64,000 nucleotides of DNA from Sulfobacillus thermotolerans (GCA_002951815.1 CP019454.1:2852001-2916000); one strand, 5' to 3'; positions 1,800 to 18,020 are shown, counted from the first letter of the stretch. A program made the numbers and translations. The notes: generated by a model not told the origin, from the sequence alone.

Positions 1800-1888
1800 A
1801 AATAAAACAAGTCCCCGTCGGGCAACGGGGATAGTGCAATATTAGAGGACATGTGATATTGAGAGGATTTGTGAAAATAATTTTCCAC
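1800..1888 (-). ncRNA. Putative antisense (counter-transcript) RNA in the rep leader
   Basis: A minus-strand -10 (TATAAT, plus-strand 1895-1900) would start transcription near 1888. Reading leftward, a perfect 7-bp stem (TCCCCGT/ACGGGGA, 1812-1831) is followed by CTTGTTTTATTTTT, which is a terminator on the minus strand only. The product of about 85-90 nt would be antisense to the rep mRNA leader. The order of RHH gene, antisense RNA and rep matches the copG-rnaII-repB control module of pMV158-type plasmids. No -35 is evident, so the promoter call is tentative. Confidence 0.45.
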
Positions 1889-1892
1889 ATTG

Positions 1893-1910
1893 TTATTATA
1901 CGACAAAAAA
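1893..1910 (-). promoter_or_regulatory. TTTTGTCGTATAAT box on the minus strand
   Basis: This is a 14-base match to the box at 1559-1576, in the opposite orientation, between the CopG-like gene and rep. It would drive the antisense transcript or serve as a second binding site for a shared regulator. Confidence 0.5.
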
Positions 1911-1941
1911 TAAATTTACATAAATAAAAGGAGTAAATAAT

Positions 1942-3810
1942 ATGTCCATGTCAGAAGAAAAATTCCAACAAATTATCCACGAGCACCTACTAAAAATGAA
2001 CGGCTCCCTCGAAGATCGACGCCAACTTTTAATGGACAACGGCCAAGCATTATTAAACCAAGTTTGGAATGTTTTTCGGGACACCGGGAAACCAGAAGTA
2101 TTCTATGATACGAGTGTGATTCAAGCTTTGGCGCAAATCAAAGTCTCTGTCGATTCTGAAACTGCTTTCTATAAACATTTCGCACCGATTTTGCGGGAGT
2201 TGCAACAACGCAAAATGCCCATCAAACCCCTCAAGCAGGATATCCAAAATGCTGCCAAGCACCTTTGGAGCCTTACCAAAGAATCCTCCGACGTAGACAG
2301 TCTAACAAAAAACCCCCCGCTGGCATTGTGGAATGATGACGACGAGCAATTTGTGACCGCCACGATTCGTGCCAATTTTGTGCGTGACGAACAAATCTCC
2401 GAAGACGCGCAAAAAACCAAAACGGTTATCGAATTTACCAAAATTGCGCAATTTCTCATAGATCGGTATCATCTTATCTCTGCAAACGGCGAGATCTATG
2501 GACTTGTCAATCTACAAAATCTTTTTGGCAAAATCCTCGGATATGCCGATGAGGATACGGGCCGTCTCGGACGATTACTGATTCGTGTCTTTTCGACCCT
2601 CGACTTTCCTGACTCTGAAACCATCGCCAAAAAAATTCTCAAGCATATTCGAATGTTATTGCCTATTCCCAGTCGAAATGAAATTCCTGACATTAATACC
2701 TATCCCGATGTTCCGTGGGGCAACATTTCTTTTGACATCGACCACCACCAAACAACCACATTACGCGCACGTCACAAGGATGTCACTGCGCATGACCGAA
2801 CACTCGTTGATGCGATGTTTCATCGCTTTCCATTGTCCGATGATGCCATTTTCGCTATTAAAGTGTTCGTGGGGTATGCGCTATTCCCCACCCACCATCA
2901 ATGGCAACGGGCACTGATTCTCGCCGCACCGCAGGGCAGCAACGGAAAAAGTACGCTTCTTTCCATCATATCGCAAATTTTTCATCCCGAAGATGTCACC
3001 CACGTCACCTTTCAAGCCTTTGCTAAGAATCCACTCTACGCCGCCGCCGCCCTATCAACAGGCACAGTGAATATTGTGACAGATATGGCTGGTAGTTTTA
3101 TCAATGAAGATGCAATAGGATATGTCCGGCAGGCGATCTCCGGGGAAGCGATGGACGCTCGTGAAATTTATGGTCGGCCATTCTCCTTTGTTCCAAGGTC
3201 AAAATGGCTTATGGCCACCAATCGGCTACCCGGCACAACGGACTCCTCCAACGCTTTAAACCGTCGGCTCTATGTGGTGGCTATGCATTCTCAGACATTT
3301 GCCGAAGGCAAAAATCTTCTCGCAGAATATTCCACGCAAGAATTTATTGACGCCTTAGCGAATGTCTGTGTGGAAACCTATCTCAACTGGATCGCCCACC
3401 ACGAAACGCTCCCAGAAATCACATCCTCCAAGGAATTTCAAGAGGAACAACGCATCGCAAACGATGCCATTTATGCCCTGTTCGATGTAGACGGAATTTT
3501 TATCCGCGATGAACACGCTCAAATCAACGCAAAAGATGCCTATAAAAAATATAAAGAATATATCCTAGCTAACGAAGATTTGCTCCGATACGGCAATGTA
3601 AAAATCATTGGAGAAAAATCCTTTTCACGCCGCATCGAAGAATTGGGATTTCTTAAAAAGCGGGCATCCACGGGTTCACGACCTTACTATTTTGAAGGGT
3701 TCCGATTGCGAAAAGCCGAGGAATTTGACCGAGCTATCGTATATGAAGAAGAAGACGAACCCAACCCGCTAGACGTAATATCCGAAGATGATGATCTTGA
3801 TCTGTGCTAA
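1942..3810 (+). CDS. Replication protein with P4/D5-type SF3 helicase domain
   Basis: This 622-residue protein has AAAGGAG 8 bases before its ATG. The C-terminal half is a phage/plasmid primase-helicase of the D5/P4 alpha family. Walker A is GSNGKST at 332-338, an acidic Walker B-like segment lies near NIVTDMAGS (377-385), sensor 1 is in KWLMATNRLP (421-430), and an RR arginine-finger pair is at 441-442. A long N-terminal region (1-250) precedes it; I see no zinc finger or prim-pol DxD signature, so primase activity is uncertain. The C-terminus is very acidic. Proteins of this family bind origin iterons and unwind the origin of P4-like satellites and integrative plasmids. An iteron-rich region starts immediately downstream, and a terminator follows the stop codon. 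Confidence 0.8.
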   Translation: MSMSEEKFQQIIHEHLLKMNGSLEDRRQLLMDNGQALLNQVWNVFRDTGKPEVFYDTSVIQALAQIKVSVDSETAFYKHFAPILRELQQRKMPIKPLKQDIQNAAKHLWSLTKESSDVDSLTKNPPLALWNDDDEQFVTATIRANFVRDEQISEDAQKTKTVIEFTKIAQFLIDRYHLISANGEIYGLVNLQNLFGKILGYADEDTGRLGRLLIRVFSTLDFPDSETIAKKILKHIRMLLPIPSRNEIPDINTYPDVPWGNISFDIDHHQTTTLRARHKDVTAHDRTLVDAMFHRFPLSDDAIFAIKVFVGYALFPTHHQWQRALILAAPQGSNGKSTLLSIISQIFHPEDVTHVTFQAFAKNPLYAAAALSTGTVNIVTDMAGSFINEDAIGYVRQAISGEAMDAREIYGRPFSFVPRSKWLMATNRLPGTTDSSNALNRRLYVVAMHSQTFAEGKNLLAEYSTQEFIDALANVCVETYLNWIAHHETLPEITSSKEFQEEQRIANDAIYALFDVDGIFIRDEHAQINAKDAYKKYKEYILANEDLLRYGNVKIIGEKSFSRRIEELGFLKKRASTGSRPYYFEGFRLRKAEEFDRAIVYEEEDEPNPLDVISEDDDLDLC

Positions 3811-3860
3811 AAAGTGTTAAAAATCAACATCCTTAATCAATCGAATAAATCCTCATCGTG

Positions 3861-3889
3861 TCAGGTCTTCCGACCTGATTTTTTATTTT
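3861..3889 (+). terminator. Rho-independent terminator after rep
   Basis: The stem is TCAGGTC/GACCTGA with a short loop (TTCC), followed by TTTTTTATTTTT. It lies 50 bp after the rep stop codon. Its right arm and T-run are repeated at 4336-4365. Confidence 0.8.
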
Positions 3890-3901
3890 TATTGATGTTC
3901 G

Positions 3902-4253
3902 CCGTCCAATCCGTCCGATTTCCCCAATCCAAATCGGACGGCGGAAAGCGTTGGGCCATCAGCGTTTCCAGCATTCCGTCCGATTCCGTCCGATTTTTTT
4001 CCTAATGTTGCTCCCCCCAAATCACATTTTTTCTCTCCGCAAATACGAAAAAATGTGTATTGAACGGATAAGTTTTTATATAAAGGGATTAAAAATCGGA
4101 CGGAATCGCGAAAACACAAGCTCCGTGCGGTTTTCCGCCGTCCGATTTGAATATACACCAAAAACTTAAATCGGACGGAATCGCGGAAACGCAGACCCTC
4201 TGCGGTTTTTAGCCGTCCGATTTTTTCTGGAATCCGTCCGATTAATCGGACGG
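3902..4253. other. oriV: Putative replication origin with iterons CCGTCCGATT
   Basis: Ten perfect copies of CCGTCCGATT occur in about 345 bp in both orientations. Forward copies begin at 3911, 3976, 3986, 4138, 4213 and 4234; inverse copies (AATCGGACGG) begin at 3932, 4094, 4169 and 4244. A near-match begins at 3902. Two copies are in direct tandem (3976-3995) and two are back to back (4234-4253). An AT-rich stretch at 3990-4095 separates the groups and could be the unwinding element. Dense iterons just downstream of a P4/D5-type helicase gene fit a theta-type origin bound by that protein. No ORF occupies the region. Confidence 0.75.
4093..4225. repeat. Two related long hairpins within the origin
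   Basis: Units 4093-4148 and 4168-4225 each begin with AAATCGGACGGAATCGCG and end with CCGTCCGATTT. Each therefore folds into a stem with 11-bp outer arms plus inner pairing between GCGAAAAC-type and GGTTTTCCGC-type segments. The two units share most of their sequence and are direct duplicates of each other. They may be cruciform or single-strand signals within the origin. Confidence 0.65.
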
Positions 4254-4335
4254 CGACATCCTTCAACAAAATGTCCCATTTTAATGAGATGCGTCATTAC
4301 ATTTTTTCTTGACAATGTTAATGGTCGTGCGACTC

Positions 4336-4365
4336 TCCGACCTGATTTTTTATTTTTATTGATGT
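4336..4365. repeat. 30-bp direct repeat of the rep terminator arm
   Basis: The stretch is identical to 3869-3898 (right half of the terminator stem, T-run and TATTTTTATTGATGT). In this copy the left stem arm is missing, so it no longer terminates. The two copies flank the whole iteron region, which suggests that the origin segment arose or moved by recombination between short repeats. Confidence 0.8.
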
Positions 4366-4633
4366 ATGGATTTTAGACTGTTTCGTCAATCGTCCCATTT
4401 CGCTCCAGACGCTCTCTATTGAAAAAATATTACGAAGACGTAGGATGATAGCAATTTGACTCCCAAATCGCTCCAGAACGCTTGAAAACGTCTTGGGAGC
4501 GATGTGCGTTGGTAGATTATACCAACGCATCATTAAAAATAATTCACGCCGCTTTGCTCACTGGCCTTGCCATTCTCTCAAAACCGTCATAAAATCCCCC
4601 CAAAATTTACCATAGGCAAAGGAATGAGAAGAG
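4366..4633. other. Non-coding region with hairpin at 4505-4529
   Basis: No gene is evident. CGCTCCAGA occurs twice (near 4401 and 4470), and an inverse copy of ATCGCTCC/GGGAGCGAT brackets 4465-4502. A perfect 10-bp stem, TGCGTTGGTA/TACCAACGCA, with a 5-nt loop lies at 4505-4529 and has no T-run after it. It may be part of the origin or transfer locus, or a leader of the next gene. Confidence 0.45.
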
Positions 4634-4843
4634 ATGACAGAAATTTTCATCAATGACATTGAAAACTCACACATTAGCTATCAGACTATTTTTTCTTGTG
4701 ACGAGGATGACTGGAAAACTGATGGTTTATTCGAGGTGGTGCATCTGTTTGGTTACTTTGTGGTCCGGGCCGTGGAAGAAGGAAAAACATATATCGCCAT
4801 TGCGAAATCCTTGTCCAAAGCCAAAGAGGCCGTGTTTGATTGA
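4634..4843 (+). CDS. Small acidic protein of unknown function
   Basis: This 69-residue ORF has GAGAAGAG 4-10 bases before its ATG. It is acidic and begins MTEIF, echoing the MTEII start of the next gene, although similarity beyond that is weak. I do not recognise a family. Small acidic proteins beside the replication region of mobile elements are sometimes antirestriction or accessory replication factors, but nothing here proves either. Confidence 0.5.
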   Translation: MTEIFINDIENSHISYQTIFSCDEDDWKTDGLFEVVHLFGYFVVRAVEEGKTYIAIAKSLSKAKEAVFD

Positions 4844-4952
4844 GCGGGTATCAGGGATGATTGATGCTTAATCATTGAGAAACGTTTTCAATAACTAGTC
4901 GGGAAAAAATTTTTCATAACGCGTCACTCCTTGGCTATTTTTTAGAAAAACA

Positions 4953-4965
4953 TTCGAATAATAAA
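4953..4965 (+). promoter_or_regulatory. TTCGAATAATAAA box upstream of the 113-aa gene
   Basis: It shares the 12-mer TCGAATAATAAA with the box at 5467-5478 and resembles the TTTTGTCGTATAAT boxes. It lies about 50 bp before the ATG at 5015, the same distance as at the other genes. Confidence 0.4.
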
Positions 4966-5014
4966 GAAGAATTGATTCAGTCCATCGTGACGTTAAACAA
5001 CAGGAGAAAATAAT

Positions 5015-5356
5015 ATGACAGAAATTATTTTAGGAAGCTATACATCTTTAGAAAGTGGAACGTGGTTCATCTTACAGAATCGTGTGCCGAAAAGTGAATT
5101 TAAAAAACTTATTTCTTTGGGGTTGGAATATCATAGATCGAACGAAGCCGATGAGGATGACACGGAAGCTTGGTTTTCGGGATGGACGTTTGGACCCTAT
5201 GGCAATAGAGAAAAACTCACCGAATTATTAGAGCAAAATGGATTTGCAGTAAAATTTGTGGGAGAAGTATGTCACGACGACGAACAATGGGATCGATCCC
5301 AAGAACCCTACGATGCGTTTGATTTAGAACCCTACAATCCATTTGATTCATATTAA
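5015..5356 (+). CDS. Acidic 113-aa protein of unknown function
   Basis: It starts at an ATG with CAGGAGAAAATAAT upstream. Acidic residues dominate, especially at residues 46-54 (EADEDDTEAW) and in the C-terminal third (CHDDEQWDRSQEPYDAFD), giving a low predicted pI. I do not recognise a domain. Strong negative charge in a small protein of a mobile element is compatible with a DNA mimic such as an antirestriction protein, but this is only a suggestion from composition. A terminator follows at 5380. Confidence 0.6.
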   Translation: MTEIILGSYTSLESGTWFILQNRVPKSEFKKLISLGLEYHRSNEADEDDTEAWFSGWTFGPYGNREKLTELLEQNGFAVKFVGEVCHDDEQWDRSQEPYDAFDLEPYNPFDSY

Positions 5357-5379
5357 AGAGTATCGAATAACCGCTCGAC

Positions 5380-5412
5380 GCCCCCTTTTCATTGCGAAAG
5401 GGGGCCTTGTTA
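5380..5412 (+). terminator. Terminator after the acidic gene
   Basis: A GCCCCCTTT/AAAGGGGGC stem of 9 bp with an 8-nt loop is followed by CTTGTTATTT. Confidence 0.7.
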
Positions 5413-5463
5413 TTTGACACCATAAAAAAATTTTTTTGATTATTTTTATAAATATCACAATCT

Positions 5464-5478
5464 TTGTCGAATAATAAA
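5464..5478 (+). promoter_or_regulatory. TTGTCGAATAATAAA box upstream of the FtsK-like gene
   Basis: This is a variant of the TTTTGTCGTATAAT box, 44 bp before the ATG at 5522 and inside an AT-rich leader. It marks the likely promoter or operator of the translocase operon. Confidence 0.5.
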
Positions 5479-5521
5479 CAACAAACACAGCTTAATTAAT
5501 AAAAAACAGGAGGAAAAATAA

Positions 5522-8452
5522 ATGAATTACCACCGATCACAATTTTTTATGAAAGTTTTTCATCATTTTGGCCGCCGCTTCATTGTATTTTTCATTGTGA
5601 CAGCATTGTTTCAGATCATCGAACAAATTTTCTTTTTTTCGACCGACGGGATATTTTCTATGATTTCAATAGGATTGTTGTTCTTCTGGAACTTCTTACC
5701 GCCTCTGTCCTCGTTGTCCAATCTTCAACACAACCTGTGGCAACGTTTCCAAGCGCAGATGGACACGGTACGCAACGTCCATCAACCGCCGATCATTCTC
5801 ACAAACGACGATTGGCGACAAATCGTGAACAGTTTTCAATATAAAATGTCTGACAAGTACGCAGAAAATCATTTTTTTCGCAATTGGATCATCGCCTTGT
5901 TTGTCACGATCATCGGGACAGGTCTATTCGTGCATTCTGTGCTAGGCGACGTGCTGGTGGGCCTAGCATTTCTTTTTCTCACATATTTTTCACTTAACAA
6001 AACAAACCGAGCACGCACGGCATTGCAAGAAGCCTTTCCCGATCTGGATTGGGTTCAAGTCCATCACAATGAGAATGACCAGGCGCTTATTAATATTGCG
6101 ATTCAAGTGTTGATCAGCGAACAAACATTCGATCAACTTTTTCCGTGGACGACTCCCCAATATTTTCCGAAAGAGATTATGATCAAGGCTATCACTATGA
6201 TGATGCACTCTCAGTGGCATCGGATCATTTTTTCACAGACCCTTGCGTTAATGCACGATGTTCAGCGGATCTTCGATGAATCAGAAAAAAACATCATCAC
6301 GATTCGACGCACCGAGACACGGAAAAATTCCCAAGGAGAGGATGAAAAATATGAAGTGGAAGAACGGCAAAGGCTCATCACACTCAAAATGACCAACACA
6401 GGGTTTACCTATGAACTAAACCCGAAGGCTGAACCGGGCACAGTAGATCGCTTAATCAGGCAAATTCGCTCCGAACGCATCCAAGCCATTCTGTCACATT
6501 ACAATGAACAAAACAGCATCGTCAAATGGCATTTCGACCTAGGCTATGTCACAGTAGACACCGAGTTTCAACGGGAAGCGGTCTATGCCGATCTCGTGGG
6601 CCAAACTGAACCAGCCCCCACAGAGGAAGAACCCATCTTCGTTCCAGAAAATGACACACCAACGACACCCGTTTTTGACCCGCATCTCACGCTGTATCCT
6701 GGCGGACCCTCGCTGGCTCTACTTGCTCCACCAAAATCGGAAAAAAATGCAACGAATGAAGGCTTCACGATGAAAAAAGCCTTGGATGCCGCTTTGCGTG
6801 ACCAAGGATTGAGTGCTGTCGAGAGCCAGATCGTCGGTATTGGTGCGACAGTCGGTGTGTTCGATCTCATTCCCCCACCAAACTTCGACCCGACTGTCCT
6901 TGTGAAAAAGAGTGAAGCGATTCGCCTTGCTTCTCGTGGAAAGCTGGCAGGGCTTCGGATTTACGCTGGTGACGAAGGGCTTCGAGCCGAGATCCTTCGT
7001 CCGCATCGTGCGGCCGTTTCCTTCGCATCGATCCTTTTCGAAATTTCAAGAATGAAAAAGATGGCCTTGCCGATGTGCTTGGGCACGGATGCGGTCGGAA
7101 ACCCTGTGATCGTGGATCTGGCCGAAGCTCCGCATTTGCTAATCGCCGGAACGACTGGTTCTGGAAAATCCATAGCCGCCCACGCGATGCTCTTGTCCCT
7201 ACTTTTTTCATTGCCCACGGACGAAATCCAGCTTATCCTTATCGATCCGAAAAAAGTGGAACTGAGCATCTACAAAACCTTATCTAACGTCTCTTTTCTC
7301 TCCAATTCTCAAGACGTGGACGCTAAGTTGTCGGAAATCGTGGACGAAATGGAGAAACGAAACGAGGCATTTGAAACCGTGGGCGCACGAAACATTTCGT
7401 CCTACATCGCAAAAACTCATCAAAAATTGCAAAGGATTGTGATCTATATAGACGAGGCCAATGATTTGTTTCTTGGCGCAGAATCCGCCGTGCCTGACAA
7501 AAAAGAAGGCAAGGAACTGCGACAGAATATAGAAAATAGTCTGACCCGCTTAGCGCAAAAGGCAAGGTCCGCTGGCATCCATTTGATTGTTGCCACGCAA
7601 AAACCCTCTGTGGAATCCGTGCCATCGCTTCTTCGTGGGAATCTTCCATCTCGATTAGCGATGACAGTTGGTACGACTGCCGAAAGCCTTGTGGCGTTGG
7701 ACGAACCCGGGGCCGAAACCCTTGCCGGGAAAGGTGATGCACTGCTCAAGCTCATCGGAACTAAACCTCGACGAGTGCAGATCGCATTTATCACAGAGGA
7801 TGAAGTCGAAAACGTGGTAAACTGGTTCACGACGCATCAAGCTCTCCAAGCTCTCCAAGCTCCTCATTCCGAGGACAAAGAGGAAAAGAAGACCACGCCA
7901 GCCCCTTTTCAATCAAAGCTGGACGCTGTGGAAAATGAAATGGCACAAACGCAATACTCGTCAAATTTCGATCTGCGCAAAGCCGAACTCACTCAAAAAA
8001 TGCCCGATCCCAGTACTCGAAAGGTTTTTTCCATCTACGTGCGAAATGCCTTTTTTGATGCCCAGTATCACGAGATAAAAGCGATGTGCGAAAAACACCA
8101 CAATGATATAGACGCCGAGTCACCTGCTATTCAGGCGTGCCGCATTTTCGCTGCTTTGAAACTTTTAAAGGCCACCGAATCTGTCCCAGCAGACACAGAA
8201 AAAAATGTGTCCCAAGACGACGATAATCAGGAAATTTTTCGAAAAAATGTCGAATATTATCTTGAGTCGCTTCGAGAATTCGAAACGTATGCGAATATCG
8301 ACAAATATGAGCTAAAAAATCTCGCTTATTCGCTGGCCGAAGGAAAGGAAATCGATCTTGTGTATATCAGAAACTATGTGACGACAGATCGTGAACTTTC
8401 CGAAAAAATTTACGAAAAAATCAAGGAGATAAATAACCATGCAAACGACTAA
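5522..8452 (+). CDS. FtsK/SpoIIIE-type membrane DNA translocase (Tra candidate)
   Basis: This 976-residue protein has CAGGAGG 7 bases before its ATG. Four hydrophobic segments lie near residues 18-39, 42-60, 120-141 and 142-158, giving an N-terminal membrane anchor. The motor domain has Walker A GTTGSGKS at 543-550, Walker B RIVIYIDEAN with D644 and E645, and the FtsK-like GIHLIVATQKPS segment near 680-692. The C-terminal 220 residues are helical and charged, and I see no FtsK gamma-type winged helix in them. In AICEs one FtsK-like protein pumps double-stranded DNA between cells. It overlaps the next gene by 14 bases, so the two are probably co-translated. Chromosomal FtsK is an unlikely identity because of the element context and the unusual C-terminus. 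Confidence 0.85.
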   Translation: MNYHRSQFFMKVFHHFGRRFIVFFIVTALFQIIEQIFFFSTDGIFSMISIGLLFFWNFLPPLSSLSNLQHNLWQRFQAQMDTVRNVHQPPIILTNDDWRQIVNSFQYKMSDKYAENHFFRNWIIALFVTIIGTGLFVHSVLGDVLVGLAFLFLTYFSLNKTNRARTALQEAFPDLDWVQVHHNENDQALINIAIQVLISEQTFDQLFPWTTPQYFPKEIMIKAITMMMHSQWHRIIFSQTLALMHDVQRIFDESEKNIITIRRTETRKNSQGEDEKYEVEERQRLITLKMTNTGFTYELNPKAEPGTVDRLIRQIRSERIQAILSHYNEQNSIVKWHFDLGYVTVDTEFQREAVYADLVGQTEPAPTEEEPIFVPENDTPTTPVFDPHLTLYPGGPSLALLAPPKSEKNATNEGFTMKKALDAALRDQGLSAVESQIVGIGATVGVFDLIPPPNFDPTVLVKKSEAIRLASRGKLAGLRIYAGDEGLRAEILRPHRAAVSFASILFEISRMKKMALPMCLGTDAVGNPVIVDLAEAPHLLIAGTTGSGKSIAAHAMLLSLLFSLPTDEIQLILIDPKKVELSIYKTLSNVSFLSNSQDVDAKLSEIVDEMEKRNEAFETVGARNISSYIAKTHQKLQRIVIYIDEANDLFLGAESAVPDKKEGKELRQNIENSLTRLAQKARSAGIHLIVATQKPSVESVPSLLRGNLPSRLAMTVGTTAESLVALDEPGAETLAGKGDALLKLIGTKPRRVQIAFITEDEVENVVNWFTTHQALQALQAPHSEDKEEKKTTPAPFQSKLDAVENEMAQTQYSSNFDLRKAELTQKMPDPSTRKVFSIYVRNAFFDAQYHEIKAMCEKHHNDIDAESPAIQACRIFAALKLLKATESVPADTEKNVSQDDDNQEIFRKNVEYYLESLREFETYANIDKYELKNLAYSLAEGKEIDLVYIRNYVTTDRELSEKIYEKIKEINNHAND

Positions 8453-9035
8453 TGTACCCGAAAACACAACAACCCTGCTCAAGAAAAAATACCGTGCGTT
8501 GACCCCCGACGAGCTAGCCCGGCGTCGGCACATTGTGCTCGACGACATCCGAAACGCTCCCCTGTCGAGCTTTGACTTTTGGGATTTATTAAAACTTAAT
8601 GTACCCAAGGGCCTCATTTTAAAAAATGTGCGGTCGATCTCGATCAAAGAACCGCGGGACGACGGTAAAATCATCCGAAAGAACTATTGGAAGAAGGACG
8701 ATGTGTTGGCGTTTCTTGAAAATCGGGATGACTGGTATCCCCAAAACCTGATTAGTTCGACGGCGCAACAAGCACATCAACGAGCGAAACGCAAACAAGA
8801 TCAGCTGCCGATGGACATCGTTCCGCTCTCCCCAGGTCGTCTGCCGCTCGATGTGCGGGCACGCAAAGTCTATCGGGCATTGCGGGATGTGTTTCCCGAA
8901 GGCCATCCCATTACGACACGTATGATTGCCGTCGTGGGCAATGTCTCTCTTTCATATGCCCATCGTGTCGTGGAGTCGATGGTCAAACAACATCGGCTCG
9001 AAAAAGATCCCCAGGGTGTCTGGCGTCTACGATAA
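8439..9035 (+). CDS. DNA-binding protein with C-terminal winged helix, partner of the translocase
   Basis: This 198-residue protein overlaps the translocase gene by 14 bases; its AAGGAG lies 9 bases before the ATG. Residues 45-96 resemble an Xis/MerR-type helix-turn-helix ending in KKDDVLAFLENR. Residues 139-198 form a winged-helix pattern (RKVYRALRDVF, TTRMIAVVG, SLSYAHRVVESMVKQHRLEK, then a short wing). FtsK and streptomycete TraB carry such a winged helix fused to the motor to read directional DNA repeats. Here it may be a separate subunit that recognises the transfer locus. An alternative is a transcriptional or replication regulator. Confidence 0.6.
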   Translation: MQTTNVPENTTTLLKKKYRALTPDELARRRHIVLDDIRNAPLSSFDFWDLLKLNVPKGLILKNVRSISIKEPRDDGKIIRKNYWKKDDVLAFLENRDDWYPQNLISSTAQQAHQRAKRKQDQLPMDIVPLSPGRLPLDVRARKVYRALRDVFPEGHPITTRMIAVVGNVSLSYAHRVVESMVKQHRLEKDPQGVWRLR

Positions 9036-9068
9036 GAGGTCACGAGAACTCTGACACACAACAAAAAA

Positions 9069-9110
9069 ACACCACGGCCCTATCCTCGGTTGCGGGCCGT
9101 GGTGTTTTGT
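9069..9110. terminator. Bidirectional terminator between convergent genes
   Basis: A perfect 12-bp stem ACACCACGGCCC/GGGCCGTGGTGT is flanked by an A-run on the left and TTTTGT on the right. It can therefore end both the plus-strand translocase operon and the minus-strand secreted-protein gene. Confidence 0.9.
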
Positions 9111-9121
9111 CGTACTTCTCC

Positions 9122-10591
9122 TTAATCTGAGAAGGTCTCACTGATGGGGAGATTCGGCAACTGCGAGACGACGTGGATTGCCGACCACGTCCCCCCAAAA
9201 GCCACGAACTCTGCGGGATTCGGCACGTGATACAAGGTATTCCCTGGTGTCACAATGTATACAGGACTCGTACCGGCTACTCGATAAAAAGAACCGGGCG
9301 GATATTGTTGTGTGGTACTCATCGGCAAATTCGGTAATTCTGACACCACTTGGATAGCCGACCAATTCAAATGCAAGTCGTTAAACGCTAAGGCACTGGG
9401 GACGTGATACAACGTCTGACTACTTGTTACAATGTACACAGCCGGGTTATTCGGCGTTTTCCAGAGACTGCCAACCGCATATTGCGGAGGATTAATCGTT
9501 GGAATTGCTGGATCAGAGTTCGTTATGGGTAAATTTGGCAACTGCGACACAAAATGAATACTCGACCAACTTAACCCGGCGTGATTAAACGTAGCCCCGT
9601 TGGGAATGTGATATAATTCTTCGTTGCTCGTGACAATATACACTGCGGGATTATTATTCAAGCGCCATAAACTTCCCACAGGATATTGCGGTTGTGACGG
9701 GGTAGGATTGGGCGTTGGTGTGGGTGTGGGGTTGGATTGATTGGCCAACGGATTCCATCCACTTGCACTATTGGCTCCCGCCGCTAACGCTTGTTGCCAC
9801 GTATAAATATACGACGGTGGTGGTCCTCCAACAACTTGAGAAAAACTAAAGTTCAATGTCTTTGGATAAGGGGCGCCTTCAAAAGTATCATTGCCGTATC
9901 CAGCCCCGGCTACTAAAGGAGATTGACTGGTAACATCAAAAGGAGCATTATTTAATAACATAGCCCGTGCGTGCCAGTGACTATATCCCGTATTAACCGT
10001 ACTCGCTAAAATACCATAATTCGGGTCGATGGTGGCGTTGTTGTACATAATTTCATAAATAGCCATCAGTGGGGTTAAAACTTGCGTAGAGTTTAAGCCC
10101 GTGTTGCTAGAGTTTACAAAGAAGGATGCAACAGAAAACAAACCATCCCCAGCATCTAGTTCTGTGCCACCATTTAAACTACCAATATAATTCAATGGAG
10201 GTTCTCCGTTGGGAATCGAGAGTTGGGCGTTTTGATCCATTTGGGCATTCAGCCCGCTAATCGGTGTGATTCCGCGATCCACCCGGGCAATATCCACCAA
10301 GACAAACAACTGTTCTTGCTGTGTTAATTGATTCCAGTTGGTTGGCAACATAATGGGGCCTAACCCCACCTGTTGACGGGCATTATCTAACGCTTGCACC
10401 GTCGCCACGGTACACGCATTGGAATTACCCCCATCGGCCAAACAGACACTCGAAAAGTTTGGGTTAGCGGGAATGTTGTTTTGTGTTAAATACGGGGGTG
10501 TGCTGGCGGCAAAGCTCATTCCACTGGCAGCCAAAGCTAAAGCGCCACTGATGAAAATTCCTGGTATCATCCATTTCATTCCACGTATCAT
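9122..10591 (-). CDS. Secreted CAP-like protein with three C-terminal surface repeats
   Basis: The chosen start, ATG at 10591 (489 aa), has GGAG 10 bases upstream and puts a signal peptide at the N-terminus (hydrophobic core near residues 10-28). An upstream in-frame extension to 10792 is less likely. Residues 30-280 resemble secreted CAP-like/SCP-like proteins of actinobacteria (LTQQEQLFVLVDIARVDRG with conserved His and Asn further on). A Pro-Thr linker (about 283-299) leads to three repeats of about 57 residues (300-357, 368-424, 427-484). Each has the pattern Y-x-x-GS-h-(11)-PAVYIVT-x-LYH-hP-(8-10)-W-x-x-I-x-x-VSQLPNLPI. It is a single cargo gene on the opposite strand. A wall-binding, adhesion or lytic role during transfer is possible but unproven. 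Confidence 0.6.
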   Translation of the reverse strand: MIRGMKWMIPGIFISGALALAASGMSFAASTPPYLTQNNIPANPNFSSVCLADGGNSNACTVATVQALDNARQQVGLGPIMLPTNWNQLTQQEQLFVLVDIARVDRGITPISGLNAQMDQNAQLSIPNGEPPLNYIGSLNGGTELDAGDGLFSVASFFVNSSNTGLNSTQVLTPLMAIYEIMYNNATIDPNYGILASTVNTGYSHWHARAMLLNNAPFDVTSQSPLVAGAGYGNDTFEGAPYPKTLNFSFSQVVGGPPPSYIYTWQQALAAGANSASGWNPLANQSNPTPTPTPNPTPSQPQYPVGSLWRLNNNPAVYIVTSNEELYHIPNGATFNHAGLSWSSIHFVSQLPNLPITNSDPAIPTINPPQYAVGSLWKTPNNPAVYIVTSSQTLYHVPSALAFNDLHLNWSAIQVVSELPNLPMSTTQQYPPGSFYRVAGTSPVYIVTPGNTLYHVPNPAEFVAFGGTWSAIHVVSQLPNLPISETFSD

Positions 10592-10633
10592 GGCCTCATC
10601 ACTCCAATTCATTACGATTATTACTCTGCAATC

Positions 10634-10668
10634 AGCGTGATTGTAACACGCTTCCCCCGTGAAACCAA
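10634..10668 (-). promoter_or_regulatory. Putative promoter of the secreted-protein gene
   Basis: On the minus strand TTGGTT (plus 10663-10668) and TACAAT (plus 10640-10645) are 17 bp apart. An inverted repeat AGCGTG/CACGCT (10634-10652) is centred on the -10 and could be an operator. Confidence 0.4.
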
Positions 10669-10771
10669 AGAATAACAGGCGTTTTCGATTATGACCCGAA
10701 ACTTTTTGGATAAAAAAAACTCCCGCAGCGCTGTTCTTGTCCACATATACTTTCTTCTGTAATGCAACAAG

Positions 10772-10897
10772 CAAGCACAGGCGTTCCTTCAAAAAATTTT
10801 ATTAAATTTCGAGCACAGCCTCATTTAGAAAATCCCAAGCACAGCCCTGTACAGTAAAACGCAAGCACAGTAATTTTGATAATTTTTTCAAGCACAG
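10772..10897 (+). repeat. Array of five CAAGCACAG direct repeats, candidate transfer or replication locus
   Basis: Copies start at 10772, 10810 (CGAGCACAG, one mismatch), 10836, 10862 and 10889, giving spacings of 38, 26, 26 and 27 bp. All have the same orientation and the spacers are AT-rich and unrelated. The array sits in a 500-bp gap between divergent genes. Regular direct 9-mers are typical of iterons or of the clt repeats read by TraB-type translocases. The ORF that crosses it on the minus strand (10802-11344) conflicts with the better gene at 11093 and was rejected. Confidence 0.65.
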
Positions 10898-11017
10898 TCT
10901 TTCGTTTGGTCGTTGATCTGTTTCACCCTGAACAGTCCCCATTTTTTCCAACAACACCTCACACAGCATACGAAAAAAATTTTTTCCTAGACCAGCGGTT
11001 TTTGTGAAAACTTTTGA

Positions 11018-11034
11018 TTTTTTGTCGTATATTA
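11018..11034 (+). promoter_or_regulatory. TTTTTTGTCGTATATTA box upstream of the membrane-protein operon
   Basis: It matches the box at 1559-1576 over TTTTGTCGTAT, and the preceding bases (GTGAAAAC-TTTT) also resemble those upstream of 1559. It lies about 60 bp before the ATG at 11093 and probably starts the 11093-13864 operon. Confidence 0.55.
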
Positions 11035-11092
11035 TTACGTTCCAACCAAAAGCAGTGGGACACCAATACAAAATACTCAGGAGAGGATAAAT

Positions 11093-11611
11093 ATGACACA
11101 AGAAAATGATTTTATCATTCAAATTTGGGATGAAGAGACGGCGCAAGCCAACACCCAAGCAATAGAAAATGCAAAACAAGCAGACATCAACATCTGGGAG
11201 AGTACCGCAAGAAACTATCGTTTTGCGAAATATGTAGATCGTCGGGCCTATCATCGTCATCATCGTCACACCCAAACACCGAAAATTCATCGTCCACAAT
11301 GGAACGAAGACCCCTTTCGTCAACAAACACCTGTCACCCGCCAATGGCCGGTGACCGACCTGTCACCACACATTTCCCCAGTTTCAGAAATGCTCGTCGG
11401 CACATTGATTCTAGCCTTAATGATCATCGTCACAGCGTTTCATGTGATGATGGGCCTTGGTTCGATAGAACAAATGTTTGCGGCCAAGGTGTCTTTGTTC
11501 GAAAATGCCTCGCCCAGTGGACTTGTGATAAGTGGACCGTTGGCGGGCTTGGAACAATTTTTTCAAAATATTATCCACCGATTTGGCACAGTGTTCATAA
11601 ATTTGTTTTAA
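11093..11611 (+). CDS. Single-pass membrane protein, unknown
   Basis: This 172-residue protein has CAGGAGAGG 9 bases before its ATG. It has a polar, Gln/Asn-rich N-terminal region, a His/Arg-rich stretch near 51-60 (RAYHRHHRHT), one transmembrane helix at about 98-121 and a mildly hydrophobic C-terminal 50 residues. No family is recognised. It is first in a run of four genes encoding membrane or secreted proteins downstream of the translocase and repeat array. That position suggests a role in transfer or in the cell envelope. Confidence 0.65.
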   Translation: MTQENDFIIQIWDEETAQANTQAIENAKQADINIWESTARNYRFAKYVDRRAYHRHHRHTQTPKIHRPQWNEDPFRQQTPVTRQWPVTDLSPHISPVSEMLVGTLILALMIIVTAFHVMMGLGSIEQMFAAKVSLFENASPSGLVISGPLAGLEQFFQNIIHRFGTVFINLF

Positions 11612-11662
11612 TAAATGGGTTTTAATGGCAAATGTATATAAGACAACAGAAGGAGAAACACA

Positions 11663-12064
11663 ATGGGACAACACACTGAGGAATTTATTCAACGAATTAC
11701 TCCAGACGTTCAACATGTCAATGCGCTGTGGGAATTAAATCCACGAATGATTTCCCGGCAAGCGTTTACCGATGCACAACTCACAAGTTTTCTATTTTGG
11801 TTGCTTTATCAGGACATTATCACGCATGGCAGTATTCGCTATTATTATCCCCCAGTGTTGTTTGCGGCTGCAAACGCCGTTGCACAACAATTTGTGGATC
11901 GGGTTATCCGTCGCCAATTCATCGAATTTCTAGGTGATTTAGAGGATGTGCTCAACTGGACGATGATCAAATTTGCGACGAAAGTCCGCTATTTGCGATA
12001 TATATCAGCATATTGGCAGTGCATCTCGGACCAAGTCGCACAAGAATTAGAAAAAATGTTATGA
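11663..12064 (+). CDS. Hypothetical 133-aa helical protein
   Basis: AGAAGGAG precedes the ATG by 7 bases. The protein is predicted largely helical with many aromatic residues (FLFWLLYQDI near 42-51, RYYYPP near 59-64). It has amphipathic stretches but no clear transmembrane segment. No family is recognised. It lies 51 bp after the previous membrane gene and 83 bp before the next one, on the same strand, and is probably in the same transcript. Confidence 0.6.
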   Translation: MGQHTEEFIQRITPDVQHVNALWELNPRMISRQAFTDAQLTSFLFWLLYQDIITHGSIRYYYPPVLFAAANAVAQQFVDRVIRRQFIEFLGDLEDVLNWTMIKFATKVRYLRYISAYWQCISDQVAQELEKML

Positions 12065-12147
12065 AAAATATTTTCTCCCAAAAAATCCGTAAAAAAAAGC
12101 GAATAATACTGCATCAAAATAAAAAAACAGGCAAGGAGACGAAAAAT

Positions 12148-12351
12148 ATGATTGTGCGCACGATAAAAAATGTGATCGAAATGATGATTGAATTGATCTT
12201 GGTTATTCTGATCATTATGGTGCTGGCCATTTTTCTCGTAGAAATGTTGTCTGTTGCCACCCACGGATTTCATTCATCCCCAACCAATTTGGGACAAGCG
12301 GCACAGCACGCACTGTTAATGACAATTCAAGTCCTGAAAAAATTTTTCTAA
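12148..12351 (+). CDS. Small membrane protein, 67 aa
   Basis: The ATG at 12148 is chosen because AAGGAGAC lies 9 bases upstream. An in-frame extension to 12013 has no such site and overlaps the previous gene. One strong transmembrane helix (ELILVILIIMVLAIFLVEML) covers residues 13-32. A short C-terminal region ends in LKKFF. Its size and single helix recall small holin- or pilin-like accessory proteins, but no family is recognised. Confidence 0.6.
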   Translation: MIVRTIKNVIEMMIELILVILIIMVLAIFLVEMLSVATHGFHSSPTNLGQAAQHALLMTIQVLKKFF

Positions 12352-12389
12352 CAGTTATCGGAATTTTCAAAAATAAGGAGACGATCACT

Positions 12390-13229
12390 ATGAATAAAAC
12401 ATTACTTAGCTCATTAATTCTGTCTGCTAGTTTATCGTTTTCGGCCACCGCGCAAGCAGCTAATGTTTCATCCATCATACCGTCCGAGTCCCCACTTTTT
12501 GCGACCATTGTGACGACAACCCCCATAAAAACTCTCAACCAGCCCATTCTATTAAACCCAACACTTGTGGTCCGCCCAAATGAGACAGTTTATATTACGA
12601 CCATTCCAGAGCAGAAAACAAATCCTCGTGAAAATTTATTGTCCGTATGGGAGAAAGCAAACTCGTCTGCCACAGAGACTCTGTCCCCAGAACCCTTGGG
12701 CCACGGCAAATGGACAGTGGTCTCTGGTTTCGCACACACGGTGCCTTTTGCGTCGATCCTTGAAAGCAATCATATCGAATCAATGCCGTCAGCGCAGGTC
12801 GCGCAGACACATTTTTCTGTGGCTGTGGTAGGCAATGACCAATCGATTCCATTTCATATTCCTTCGACTATTACCTCTCACGATGTGCTGATGATTGAAA
12901 ATTTTACGATGAACAACGATCAAAGCTTCGACACACAACAATATCTAAGAGCACAAGAACAGGGCTGTACAAGCATTGCCAGTCCCACAATCGATCCGAT
13001 GTGCATTACGCCCGCGTCGGGACTCGTGACAAAATTAGTGGTGTCTCCATCACCACGTCCCAACCAACCTATAGTCCTGACGCATCTCCCAACGAAGCAA
13101 CGCAATAGCACAGGCTGGCCGCTTGTGTGGTGGTGGCTCATCGCACTTCTCGTATTACTGATCGTCGTGTGGTGGTGGGTGCGACGACACCGGCACCACA
13201 CACACCAAAACAAGGACAGTGAGAAATAA
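12390..13229 (+). CDS. Secreted, C-terminally anchored protein of unknown function
   Basis: This 279-residue protein has ATAAGGAG 9 bases before its ATG. A signal peptide (1-24, predicted cleavage after ATAQA) exports a Ser/Thr/Pro-rich domain of about 215 residues. A Trp-rich transmembrane helix (WWWLIALLVLLIVVWWW, about 247-264) and a His/Arg-rich tail (RRHRHHTHQ) then anchor it, giving type I topology. Two Cys (near 194 and 207) could form a disulfide. It overlaps the resolvase gene by one base (TAATG). As an exposed envelope protein of the element it could act in mating contact or surface exclusion. Confidence 0.6.
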   Translation: MNKTLLSSLILSASLSFSATAQAANVSSIIPSESPLFATIVTTTPIKTLNQPILLNPTLVVRPNETVYITTIPEQKTNPRENLLSVWEKANSSATETLSPEPLGHGKWTVVSGFAHTVPFASILESNHIESMPSAQVAQTHFSVAVVGNDQSIPFHIPSTITSHDVLMIENFTMNNDQSFDTQQYLRAQEQGCTSIASPTIDPMCITPASGLVTKLVVSPSPRPNQPIVLTHLPTKQRNSTGWPLVWWWLIALLVLLIVVWWWVRRHRHHTHQNKDSEK

Positions 13230-13864
13230 TGAAAGTGGCTCTGTACGCTCGCGTTTCAACACGGGACAAAGACCAGAACCCCGAAACGCAATTAATTCAG
13301 CTCAGAGAGTTTTGCCGGGCCAATGGCTGGGATAATGTCCAAGAATATGTGGATCAAGCTAGTGCCAAGGATTTCAAAAACCGCAAGGCTTGGCGGCAAT
13401 TGATGGAGGACGCCGCTAAGCGCAAAATCGATTATATTCTGGTGTGGAAGTTAGATCGTGCTTTTCGTTCGGTGGTGGACGCGGCCCATGCGCTAGAAAA
13501 TTTTAAGCATTGGAATGTGTCCTTTCGATCCTATCAGGAACAATGGATCGACACAACATCCCCGTTTGGTGAGGTGCTGTTTTACATCACCTCAGCGTTT
13601 GCACAACTGGAACGGTCTATGATCCAAGAAAGAGTCAAGGCCGGAATGGACAGAGCGCGGCGCGAAGGCAAAACCCTCGGACGGCCCCGTGTTGATCCGA
13701 AAAAACTGCAAAAACTCACACCGTTCCTCGAAAAAATTCAATGTGGCGCAATGAGCTACCGTCAGGTGAGTCGAGAAACAGGGATTTCCATTGGCACGAT
13801 TCAGCGACAAATGAAAGCGTATCAAAAAGGCCAAGAAAAATCCTCTTTCGGTTCAACCACCTAA
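13229..13864 (+). CDS. Serine recombinase of the resolvase/invertase family
   Basis: This 211-residue protein has the nucleophilic Ser in MKVALYARVSTRD (S10), the conserved VWKLDRAFRS segment near 75-84, a long E helix near 110-140 and a C-terminal helix-turn-helix (SYRQVSRETGISIGTIQRQM, about 173-192). The length fits small resolvases. It starts inside the stop of the preceding membrane gene, so the two are translationally coupled. The likely role is resolution of multimers of the excised element. Inversion of a DNA segment is possible, but no inverted crossover sites were found. Confidence 0.85.
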   Translation: MKVALYARVSTRDKDQNPETQLIQLREFCRANGWDNVQEYVDQASAKDFKNRKAWRQLMEDAAKRKIDYILVWKLDRAFRSVVDAAHALENFKHWNVSFRSYQEQWIDTTSPFGEVLFYITSAFAQLERSMIQERVKAGMDRARREGKTLGRPRVDPKKLQKLTPFLEKIQCGAMSYRQVSRETGISIGTIQRQMKAYQKGQEKSSFGSTT

Positions 13865-13903
13865 AAAGCTCGGAAGCCATTGCGGGACAACGACTTTCGA
13901 GCT
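13865..13903 (+). terminator. Weak terminator-like hairpin after the resolvase gene
   Basis: AAGCTCGGAAG can pair with CTTTCGAGCTT (11 bp with one G-T pair) across a long loop, and CTTC follows. There is no T-run, so termination is uncertain. Confidence 0.35.
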
Positions 13904-13974
13904 TCTTCAGAGGTTTTGGTGTTTATGAGGTTTTTTCCGTACCCAAAAGATGTCTTTGTGGTACATCATCTCCC

Positions 13975-14214
13975 TCAACATTCACACTTAGAAACATTCT
14001 TTAAACACTTATCAATACAAGGATCATTACATTCGAATACGCGTTGACATGTTCTTTTGTTCACAAGAACCCGTTTGCCTTGATCTGAACTGCCCCCAAA
14101 TCCACTTGACCTGTTGTCTGGCCGATCATAGCATAAATCCTCTTTATTATAGGACTGACCATCAATTGTTATCGTGGTCTCGTCACATGTAATGTTGTGT
14201 CCACAAATTTGCAT
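13975..14214 (-). CDS. Small Cys-rich protein, unknown
   Basis: This 79-residue protein has nine Cys, most of them in the last 25 residues. GGAGG lies 14 bases before the ATG, rather far. No signal peptide is evident. The Cys spacing could bind metal or, if exported, form disulfides. It is in the minus-strand pair opposite xis-int. No family is recognised. Confidence 0.5.
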   Translation of the reverse strand: MQICGHNITCDETTITIDGQSYNKEDLCYDRPDNRSSGFGGSSDQGKRVLVNKRTCQRVFECNDPCIDKCLKNVSKCEC

Positions 14215-14282
14215 GAACTGTCATGTCACCTCCTTTTCATTACTTAATCGTTATATTACCAGATAATTCTGATAAAATCCAC

Positions 14283-14549
14283 CTATTTTCTAGAGCTGTC
14301 CAATTCTGCCAGTTTCTTTTGCATTTTCTTGATCTCATATTCGGCATAGATCTTTTGCATGGTGCGCAAAAACTCTGCATCATCCCGCATTTTCTCATAA
14401 ATAGCCGTGAGAAAATCTGTGGCATTTTTTTCGAAGTGCTGGCGAATCATATCCCGAAGCCCCGCAGAGGTTTCATTTGTGACACGAAAAGCCAATACTG
14501 CTGTATCGTCATTTTCTGTTTGTTTTTTTCGACGTGGCATGGTCATCAT
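14283..14549 (-). CDS. Small basic/helical protein, possible regulator
   Basis: This 88-residue protein starts at ATG 14549 after AAAAGGAATG; two further Met codons follow within six residues. A basic N-terminus (PRRKKQ) precedes a segment VLAFRVTNETSAGLRDMIRQHF that resembles a ribbon-helix-helix. It ends in a charged coiled-coil-like helix (about 55-88). It diverges from xis across a 166-bp region with repeated TACTATTA motifs. It may be the repressor of the xis-int promoter. Confidence 0.5.
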   Translation of the reverse strand: MMTMPRRKKQTENDDTAVLAFRVTNETSAGLRDMIRQHFEKNATDFLTAIYEKMRDDAEFLRTMQKIYAEYEIKKMQKKLAELDSSRK

Positions 14550-14593
14550 TCCTTTTTTTCAGATTTTTTGCTTGAAGTTTTTTATTTATTACA

Positions 14594-14690
14594 TACTATT
14601 ACTGACTTTAACAGATTTTAATAGTCTTGACAAGTTCTACAACTTTTGTTATATTTTTTGTAGATTTTTTAATACTATCAAGTACTATTA
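14594..14690 (+). promoter_or_regulatory. xis-int promoter with TACTATTA operators
   Basis: A near-canonical promoter, TTGACA (14627-14632), 17 bp, TATATT (14650-14655), lies 60 bp before the xis ATG. TACTATTA occurs at 14594-14601 and 14683-14690, TACTATCA at 14673-14680, and an inverse TAATAGT at 14619-14625 abuts the -35. These half-sites bracket the promoter and are likely operators for Xis or for the divergent small protein. Confidence 0.65.
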
Positions 14691-14715
14691 ATCCCAATGA
14701 AAGGAATCGATTTCT

Positions 14716-14970
14716 ATGAATCAAATAACTCCAATCAATCGCAATGACAAATCCACTTGGCCTGAGATCCTCTCTGTAAAAGACGTGTGCTATATTTTGT
14801 CCACTTCACGAAATACGGTCTACGACCTTATTGCCATAGGGCATCTCCATTCATTACCGAGTATGGGCAAAATTCATCGAATCACCAAAGATTCGTTGCT
14901 AGCCTTTTTACAGGCTAAAAATCCCTATAATCCTCCTGTACCGCTTAAAAAATTCACAGGAGGCCGATAA
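14716..14970 (+). CDS. xis: Excisionase-type (MerR-like) DNA-binding protein
   Basis: This 84-residue protein carries the excisionase-family helix-turn-helix: ILSVKDVCYILSTSRNTVYD followed by a wing and SLLAFLQAKN (about residues 16-70). Upstream is AAAGGA, 9 bases before the ATG. It ends two bases before the integrase start codon, so the two are transcribed together from the promoter at 14627. Xis proteins bend the att DNA and bias the integrase towards excision. Confidence 0.8.
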   Translation: MNQITPINRNDKSTWPEILSVKDVCYILSTSRNTVYDLIAIGHLHSLPSMGKIHRITKDSLLAFLQAKNPYNPPVPLKKFTGGR

Positions 14971-14972
14971 AA

Positions 14973-16154
14973 ATGGCAGATAAAAGAAAAGTCAGCGAAA
15001 CGCATCTGGGAACAGTCCGTGGCATGATTTATGCCACGGACACTCAAAAAAAATGGCTCGTGAAATGGACCTATCACGAAACAGGAAAGAAATGGCCTAT
15101 CCGTGAACAAAAAATCGTGTATGGGCTAAAAATCAACGCTGAACAGTTCCTCGAAAACATCATGAGAGAAATAGACAGTGGCAAGCACACGAAAAAAGCG
15201 CAAAAAATGACCGTGGAACAATGGCTAGAACAATGGCTCGATGCGAAAAAAAATGGGATTTACGGCAAAAGTATCAAAGACAAAACACTTGTGACGTATC
15301 AACAACGTATTCAATACATTTGTAAATTCCTCGGTCAACACACTGTGCAAGACCTCACAACACAAGACGTGCAAAAATTTGTCAATAATGCCATGCGTGA
15401 TAACACCATTTCGCTCCGCACAAAACAGTACACGTTTCGTGTGCTGAAAATGTCCTTGAACGACGCTGAAGCATGGGAAATCATCGGAAGAAACCCTGCC
15501 GCCAAATTAAAAATTGGCCAGAACGCCAGTCCCAAACGCATACCGCTCAACATCGAGCAGCTTCAGCAGGTCATGACACAACTGCAACACGAACAGTATG
15601 GACTCCCCCTTGAGTTCATCGCTGTGACAGGTGTGCGCGTGGGCGAATGTTTAGGACTGACTTGGGATTGTATTGACTTCGAGAAAGGCAATGTGGAAAT
15701 TAAGCAACAACTCACGGAAATTGGCAACAAAATCATTTTGGAACAAACCACAAAAACCGCTTCCAGCCAACGTTTCGTAGCCTTGCCCACAACATTTGTG
15801 GCAAAATTGAAGGCCCATCGTCGCACGCAACTGCAAATGCGGTTGAAAAATCCAAGCGATGCTTGGCAAAACGATTTTGTGTTTGCAACCCAAAATGGAA
15901 CGCCTATCAGCCCGAACAATCTTCGGCGCACATTCCGACGTGTTTTAAAAAAATGTGGATTGCCTCCGTATCATGTTCACGATCTACGACATACCTACGC
16001 CACTTTGCTGTACGATACCACGAAAAATATTAAGCTTGTTTCGGAAATGCTTGGTCATACCTCCACACAAATCACTATTGACACGTATACCCACACCACA
16101 GACCACGCAAAAGAAGAAATCGCCCATATCGTGGACGATCTCTTTTATCAGTGA
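14973..16154 (+). CDS. int: Tyrosine integrase
   Basis: This 393-residue protein has AGGAGG in the last codons of xis. It has an N-terminal arm-binding domain (about 10-75, Trp/Lys-rich), a SAM-like core-binding domain (about 80-180) and a catalytic domain with R222 (TGVRVGE), H336-x-x-R339 (HDLRHTYATLLYD), H362 (LGHTSTQ) and the nucleophile Y372 (TYTH). All catalytic residues are present. It lies 166 bp from the tRNA-Lys gene it uses as attachment site. The 46-bp duplicated tRNA end is the product of its reaction. Confidence 0.95.
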   Translation: MADKRKVSETHLGTVRGMIYATDTQKKWLVKWTYHETGKKWPIREQKIVYGLKINAEQFLENIMREIDSGKHTKKAQKMTVEQWLEQWLDAKKNGIYGKSIKDKTLVTYQQRIQYICKFLGQHTVQDLTTQDVQKFVNNAMRDNTISLRTKQYTFRVLKMSLNDAEAWEIIGRNPAAKLKIGQNASPKRIPLNIEQLQQVMTQLQHEQYGLPLEFIAVTGVRVGECLGLTWDCIDFEKGNVEIKQQLTEIGNKIILEQTTKTASSQRFVALPTTFVAKLKAHRRTQLQMRLKNPSDAWQNDFVFATQNGTPISPNNLRRTFRRVLKKCGLPPYHVHDLRHTYATLLYDTTKNIKLVSEMLGHTSTQITIDTYTHTTDHAKEEIAHIVDDLFYQ

Positions 16155-16171
16155 ATGTGTTCTAGTTCATA

Positions 16172-16209
16172 TCGCCGTGCGGTCACACGGCGAATTTTTA
16201 TTTTTATGA
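16172..16209 (+). terminator. Terminator after int
   Basis: A CGCCGTG/CACGGCG stem of 7 bp with a 6-nt loop is followed by AATTTTTATTTTTAT. It shields the integrase operon from the minus-strand tRNA operon. Confidence 0.8.
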
Positions 16210-16224
16210 TGCGTTTCATTTCTC

Positions 16225-16247
16225 CTGGCAACATTTTGGCAACATCG
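16225..16247 (+). promoter_or_regulatory. Putative integrase arm-type sites, right end
   Basis: Two TGGCAAC repeats 11 bp apart match 21 of 23 bases of 1449-1471 at the other end of the element. They lie between int and the attR core. Confidence 0.6.
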
Positions 16248-16320
16248 AGGAATTTTTACCATTTTATGTTATCGTTGTCTTTTTTGAAGTCTGGAAAACG
16301 TTGATTTTATAAGGTTTTTC

Positions 16321-16396
<76 letters not shown>

Positions 16397-17998: not shown

Positions 17999-18020
17999 CG
18001 CACAGACCAAAGGAGAACTC

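Follow-up and report, generated by a model that had tools for sequence, protein, structure and literature searches.

Transfer of double-stranded DNA (dsDNA) by a lone pump has so far been tied mainly to Streptomyces-type bacteria, in which TraB moves dsDNA as a single hexameric motor partnered by the Spd membrane proteins (PMC12857230, PMC3218068); it is for Streptomyces TraB that a recent type IV secretion review presents transfer by an FtsK-type protein alone (PMC12857230). The actinomycete integrative and conjugative elements (AICEs) integrate site-specifically with the aid of a tyrosine integrase, carry a replication gene of their own and a single Tra protein with an FtsK/SpoIIIE domain (PF01580), and encode neither a relaxase nor a type IV secretion system (T4SS) (PMC3218068). 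Here we describe an integrative element with the same combination of features in a 64,000-nucleotide stretch of the chromosome of Sulfobacillus thermotolerans Kr1 (GCA_002951815.1 CP019454.1:2852001-2916000; hereafter, the window, at its full length), an acid-loving, industrial biomining organism that belongs to Bacillota and is not an actinomycete. The original prediction, made for positions 5522-13229, was a candidate AICE-like conjugative system outside Actinobacteria. The integrase, the excisionase-like (Xis-like) protein, the replication protein (Rep) and the single FtsK-type motor, the lack of relaxase (MOB) and T4SS genes, and the non-actinobacterial host all agree with that description, and "AICE-like" is right as an analogy of design; it is wrong as a family name: the type of Rep and the host depart from those of AICEs, kinship with TraB is unproven, and membership in the AICE/TraB family is not established.

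The differences extend beyond the Bacillota host. Compared with AICEs, the motor falls outside TraB in the best tree, no Spd or GntR genes are recognized, and Rep is of the DUF5906/P4 type, not RepAM (PF12307) or Prim-Pol (PF09250) (for RepSA, there is no public model); two surveyed AICEs pair Prim-Pol with a Poxvirus_D5 or a DNA_pol_A protein (PMC3218068). With the Streptomyces TraB/Spd system, the element shares a membrane dsDNA motor and small membrane proteins (here predicted from the genes) and short repeats as a putative DNA mark (the 8-bp clt there, a 10-bp array near the motor gene here), but TraB has a fused recognition winged helix-turn-helix (wHTH) domain, the MarR-like C-terminus, which is missing here, a separate HTH-like gene being present. 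The 18.7-kb pAGRA3207_1 of Actinomadura graeca (NZ_CP059573) is likewise a small circle with a tyrosine integrase, a long FtsK (907 aa) and no annotated relaxase, but it comes from an actinomycete and encodes an FtsK with the full alpha-beta-gamma set, along with ParA and GntR; its record gives no documentation of transfer. Outside Actinobacteria, in ICETh1/TdtA transjugation of Thermus, a lone hexamer of the FtsK-HerA superfamily encoded on an integrative element donates DNA; TdtA, however, is a HerA-like protein of 568 aa with a NurA nuclease partner and not an FtsK with an N-terminal transmembrane (TM) region (PMC5365140). The FtsK-type coupling proteins of T4SS, such as Orf21 of Tn916 and TcpA of pCW3, are also FtsK/HerA motors on integrative or conjugative elements of Bacillota, but they act in concert with a relaxase and with VirB4, and the Kr1 element encodes neither.

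A complete integrative element at a tRNA-Lys gene

The element is complete and spans positions 1264-16366 of the window (15,057 bp); the genes of the originally predicted interval were confirmed and all lie inside this larger unit. Its extent is defined by a perfect 46-bp direct repeat that corresponds to the 3' end of tRNA-Lys (attL, 1264-1309; attR, 16321-16366), the right copy lying within tRNA-Lys(CTT) itself (16321-16396, minus strand). A perfect repeat of 46 bp with one copy in tRNA-Lys is not a product of chance. The G+C content falls to 37-49% across the element, whereas most of the window to its right has about 49-59%. The tyrosine integrase gene (14973-16154, plus strand; PF00589, E = 9e-28; PHROG_1, E = 8e-70) adjoins attR and the tRNA-Lys at this end of the element, and just before it lies the gene for the Xis-like HTH protein (14716-14970, plus strand; HTH_17, E = 9e-10; excise, E = 3e-6), for which the PF12728 match is above the cut-off and the TIGR01764 match slightly below it. 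All backbone open reading frames (ORFs) of the Kr1 element are intact, most of them with clear ribosome-binding sites (RBS). No clean empty site was found in the relatives, in which the tRNA-Lys and the right flank are present and the left flank is absent. The tRNA-Lys site is probably an integration hotspot: in another species, very large genes resembling a BREX-type defense island adjoin the same tRNA-Lys (G017:C82, L112 1963-17433), and the same genome contains additional, solitary copies of the tRNA end.

Rep (1942-3810, plus strand, 622 aa) contains an SF3/P4-type primase-helicase C-terminal domain (DUF5906, E = 3.5e-11, above the cut-off; primase_Cterm, E = 3e-23; PHROG 864, E = 3e-30) and is matched at 20-26% by P4-type Reps from phages and from small plasmids. 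Between rep and ftsK, there are ten exact copies of the 10-bp sequence CCGTCCGATT on both strands (3911-4253; 0.12 expected in the window), accompanied by two hairpins and flanked on either side by identical, AT-rich 30-bp direct repeats (3869-3898 and 4336-4365); the DNA folding z-score of this region of about 500 bp is -5.65. Judging from this arrangement, the candidate cis-acting locus (3869-4365) looks like a replication origin, and a role in transfer is possible as well.

The main ORFs were scanned with the Pfam, NCBIfam, PHROGs and PADLOC profile libraries, and no meaningful match to a relaxase, VirB4 or VirD4/TraG was detected among them, nor one to the terminase, portal, capsid or tail families. 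The FtsK-type protein faintly matches TraD and terminase through the P-loop that it shares with them, and the HTH of the resolvase faintly matches the small terminase subunit. The original prediction is upheld in this respect: the integrase, Xis and Rep are present, the conjugation genes said to be missing are indeed not found, and neither a MOB relaxase nor phage packaging genes, both named in advance as counterevidence, turned up in the element. The lack of a relaxase by Pfam and NCBIfam sets the element apart from integrative conjugative and mobilizable elements of the T4SS type, and the lack of a terminase, portal and major capsid protein sets it apart from tailed and double jelly-roll capsid proviruses. 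To the left of the element, as far as 19 kb away, the DNA resembles ordinary chromosome, with no conjugation genes apparent among the ORFs as judged by eye. Elsewhere, the published Kr1 chromosome (3,317,203 bp) holds an integrated 83-kb region with a T4SS, a relaxase and VirB4 and, as far as the available text of the genome report goes, the ICEfinder analysis lists this T4SS region only, with no mention of the 15-kb element (PMC6803676). A search for an oriT shared between that region and the element produced none: the blastn matches are at most 27 bp long (best E = 0.036).

The FtsK-type motor, its relatives and its neighbors

The motor (5522-8452, plus strand, 976 aa; PF01580, E = 8e-39, 133.7 bits against a cut-off of 24) begins with about four hydrophobic segments, according to hydropathy, followed by a long middle region, in agreement with the membrane-anchored FtsK-type protein initially proposed. 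Residues 395-769 align, across the alpha and beta domains, with FtsK proteins of known structure (E = 2e-49), and the Walker A (GTTGSGKS) and Walker B (IYIDE) motifs are present; beyond the motor domain (approximately 395-770) lies a C-terminal extension of about 200 residues. Pfam FtsK_alpha and FtsK_gamma were not detected in the motor by a scan that finds both in the Listeria and Actinomadura controls, and the C-terminal DNA-recognition domain of TraB and FtsK is absent. The only other gene in the genome with an FtsK domain above the Pfam cut-off is the chromosomal ftsK of the host.

The motor phylogeny included about 40 sequences, TraB contributing only three. In the best tree, the motors of the Kr1 element and of a related element in the genome G019 (see below) form a deep lineage of their own, which lies on the side of FtsK but not within the chromosomal FtsK proteins, and away from TraB, EssC and Orf21. 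Sequence identity is highest to chromosomal FtsK (about 37%), with 28% to pIJ101 TraB and about 20% to Orf21. Capture of a chromosomal FtsK was rejected (approximately unbiased (AU) test, p = 0.0136; no gamma domain), and with it the grouping with chromosomal SpoIIIE/FtsK that would have contradicted the original prediction; both the domain set and the clade differ from those of chromosomal FtsK/SpoIIIE. Because the chromosomal origin is rejected, FtsK_gamma is missing and the host FtsK is encoded separately, the role of the element motor probably differs from that of the host protein. Grouping of the motor with FtsK-type proteins of other loci in the bacterial family was not rejected (AU p = 0.31). 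Such proteins, of 684-745 aa, are encoded at L026 372-11610 (G020) and also at L024, L025 and L027; at least one of them, that at L026, adjoins a VirB4/TraG-type ATPase within a large gene cluster that might be a T4SS whose coupling protein is of the FtsK type.

A single full-length relative of the motor (42% identity) was identified; it comes from another member of the genus (G019) and adjoins tRNA-Arg. This sister element (G019:C1, L022 10411-18001 and the start of L023) comprises int, xis, broken resolvase, surface-protein and ftsK genes, with 55% identity to the Kr1 element in the integrase, 62% in Xis and 71-72% in the resolvase. It retains the order of the int, xis, ftsK, surface-protein and resolvase genes, with a surface protein of the same layout encoded between ftsK and the resolvase. 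Judging by the two sequences, int, xis, ftsK, the surface-protein gene and the resolvase gene make up the element backbone, and two tRNA sites have served this lineage; given that the gene order is shared at a different tRNA, the motor appears to be part of this backbone in a lineage that has moved. No further full-length relative of the motor was found among 34 genomes of the family, 398 genomes of the phylum, and the phage, plasmid, viral and GTDB collections. The N-terminal part of the motor matched only the window itself in the 398 phylum genomes and, within the family, only G019. In scans of contig collections, which reach close relatives only, the FtsK queries gave no relatives in GTDB contigs, and IMG/VR contained none of the whole FtsK, the alignment of its N-terminal part, Rep, the HTH-like protein or the surface protein.

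The gene of the HTH-like partner (8439-9035, plus strand, 198 aa; from the ORF list) shares its first 14 bp with the end of ftsK. A C-terminal winged-helix topology is seen in a low-confidence, single-sequence model (pLDDT 60.7); a comparison with the gamma and TraB wHTH domains by hhalign gave no signal, nor did the control pair. Further downstream, on the plus strand, follow genes for a one-TM protein (11093-11611, 172 aa; hydropathy; no homolog in 33 family genomes), a soluble protein without TM segments (11663-12064, 133 aa) that is ATGA-coupled to the next gene, a single-TM protein (12061-12351, about 96 aa; ORF list and hydropathy), and the surface protein (12390-13229), with an N-terminal signal-like segment, a C-terminal TM segment (246-264) and a basic tail. 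The TM segment and tail of the latter are 46% identical over 24 aa to those of the G019 gene in the same position; the structure model is poor (pLDDT 40). Save for this weak G019 counterpart, the four proteins, three with TM segments and one soluble, have no relative in the 33 other family genomes. Between the HTH-like gene and this group lies a minus-strand gene (9122-10792) for a secreted, host-type protein with three repeats of about 55 aa and a signal peptide that starts at approximately residue 71. Because both halves of this protein have many homologs in the bacterial family, it is probably cargo. The separate winged-helix partner that had been postulated stands as a gene; the low-confidence model suggests the fold, and the protein has no family match. 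The postulated string of new membrane proteins shrinks to three, the 11663-12064 product having no TM segment and the 9122-10792 product being secreted and common in the family.

Proposed transfer and alternative roles of the motor

The explanation that we favor, with somewhat less than even confidence, is a self-replicating integrative element that moves dsDNA with an independently derived FtsK motor. According to this model, Int and Xis would excise a 15-kb circle, Rep would replicate it from the CCGTCCGATT array, and the resolvase would reduce multimers. The FtsK-type protein would be a hexameric dsDNA pump at the membrane, with the element DNA marked by the adjacent HTH-like protein (or by Rep), which would substitute for the absent C-terminal recognition domain of the pump, and the surface proteins with signal or TM segments could aid cell contact or passage through the envelope. 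The transfer that we infer would proceed as dsDNA, as it does for the TraB plasmids of Streptomyces, although the motor would have originated separately; the pumping of dsDNA, in particular, is proposed by analogy with TraB. If this is true, a minimal one-pump, T4SS-free route, here in a 15-kb element of a Bacillota chromosome, arose more than once, and relaxase-based surveys can overlook such elements. The broader proposition, that relaxase-free dsDNA conjugation evolved a second time, in Bacillota, from motors that belong neither to the TraB nor to the chromosomal FtsK lineage and with recognition moved to the HTH protein and the 10-bp array, is more doubtful, and we put it forward with considerable reserve.

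Several observations weigh against dsDNA transfer by an independently derived pump. The phylogeny called for by the original prediction separates the motor from chromosomal FtsK as expected, but does not group it with TraB; the AU test does not reject such a grouping (p = 0.114), and a relationship to TraB is not established. The G019 copy is decayed, with stops and frameshifts in ftsK and the resolvase, so that a single intact copy, that of Kr1, is known; moreover, the G019 element has no Rep match, and the 10-bp CCGTCCGATT repeats (iterons) are not conserved there. The proposed role of the 198-aa HTH partner relies on a poor model, with no profile or family match, and Spd, GntR and other AICE accessory genes are not recognized in the element. 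Furthermore, Streptomyces transfer occurs in mycelium, whereas a pump in a unicellular rod would have to cross two Gram-positive cell walls.

Other roles of the motor are discussed here in the order of decreasing probability. Arguably, the pump could act inside the cell, where FtsK, together with the resolvase, would move or resolve the excised plasmid at division septa or draw it into the forespore. The motor is indeed closest in identity to chromosomal FtsK, the function of which is septal DNA transport, the element encodes a serine resolvase, and the genus forms spores; but the chromosomal-FtsK origin is rejected, the orientation-reading gamma domain is absent, the linked surface proteins would be unnecessary for maintenance and, to our knowledge, an FtsK of its own is not usual on a small plasmid. 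We consider such a role unlikely. A membrane-enveloped provirus, with the 12390-13229 product as the spike, the small TM proteins in the envelope and FtsK packaging or extruding the genome, would account for the 15-kb size, the integrase, the P4-type Rep, the spike-like protein with its signal and TM segments, and the small TM proteins. In some viruses that contain a membrane, DNA is indeed packaged by FtsK/HerA motors, but ATPases for packaging are far shorter than the 976 aa found here; with no capsid, portal, terminase or tail family in the element, and no close relatives of its FtsK, Rep, HTH or surface proteins in IMG/VR, a viral origin seems improbable.

The element might also be a mobilizable satellite, with FtsK as the coupling protein that feeds it into a T4SS elsewhere in the same chromosome. 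The T4SS region of Kr1, with its relaxase and VirB4 (PMC6803676), would offer such an outlet, and the FtsK-type protein beside a VirB4/TraG-type ATPase at L026, with which grouping is not rejected, fits this picture. The element has no relaxase and no oriT-like DNA in common with the T4SS region, which weakens this possibility, and the N-terminal half of the motor is unmatched in the phylum sample and, in the family, matches only G019; we rate a satellite as marginally more improbable than a provirus. The least probable option appears to be an immobile remnant, that is, a once-mobile element that is now fixed and the functions of which are free of selection: the sole relative, in G019, is visibly decayed, but the Kr1 backbone ORFs are intact, and attL and attR match perfectly along their 46 bp.

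Other genes of the element and its surroundings

The serine resolvase gene (13229-13864, plus strand, 211 aa; PF00239, E = 9e-39) is TAATG-coupled to the surface-protein gene. As a marker for related elements, the resolvase was rejected because it occurs in unrelated elements, one of which (G020 element, L079 148-10271) encodes, in addition to a resolvase of the same family, a TrwC relaxase, TraG and a reverse transcriptase-HNH ORF that is likely a group II intron. Between the resolvase and xis, two minus-strand genes encode a possible repressor (14283-14549, 88 aa; weak match to PHROG 357, E = 0.012) and a 79-aa product with no assigned function (13975-14214; from the ORF list). The remaining small genes are all on the plus strand: a ribbon-helix-helix/Arc-like regulator precedes rep (1620-1799, 59 aa; RHH_5, E = 6e-4, below the cut-off; Arc-like PHROG), and a 69-aa protein (4634-4843; weak homolog in the G019 element, tblastn E = 1e-4) and an acidic 113-aa protein (5015-5356; AGGAG-type RBS, no family match) are encoded between the repeat array and ftsK.

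Members of the family also encode proteins of about 1,100 aa that contain the repeat of about 55 aa found in the 9122-10792 protein, and another gene with the same repeat sits just left of the window. Directly to the right of the tRNAs, there is an ordinary, flagellar-looking gene cluster (17058-22772) with FlgK/FlgL-like, CsrA-like and FliM-like genes.

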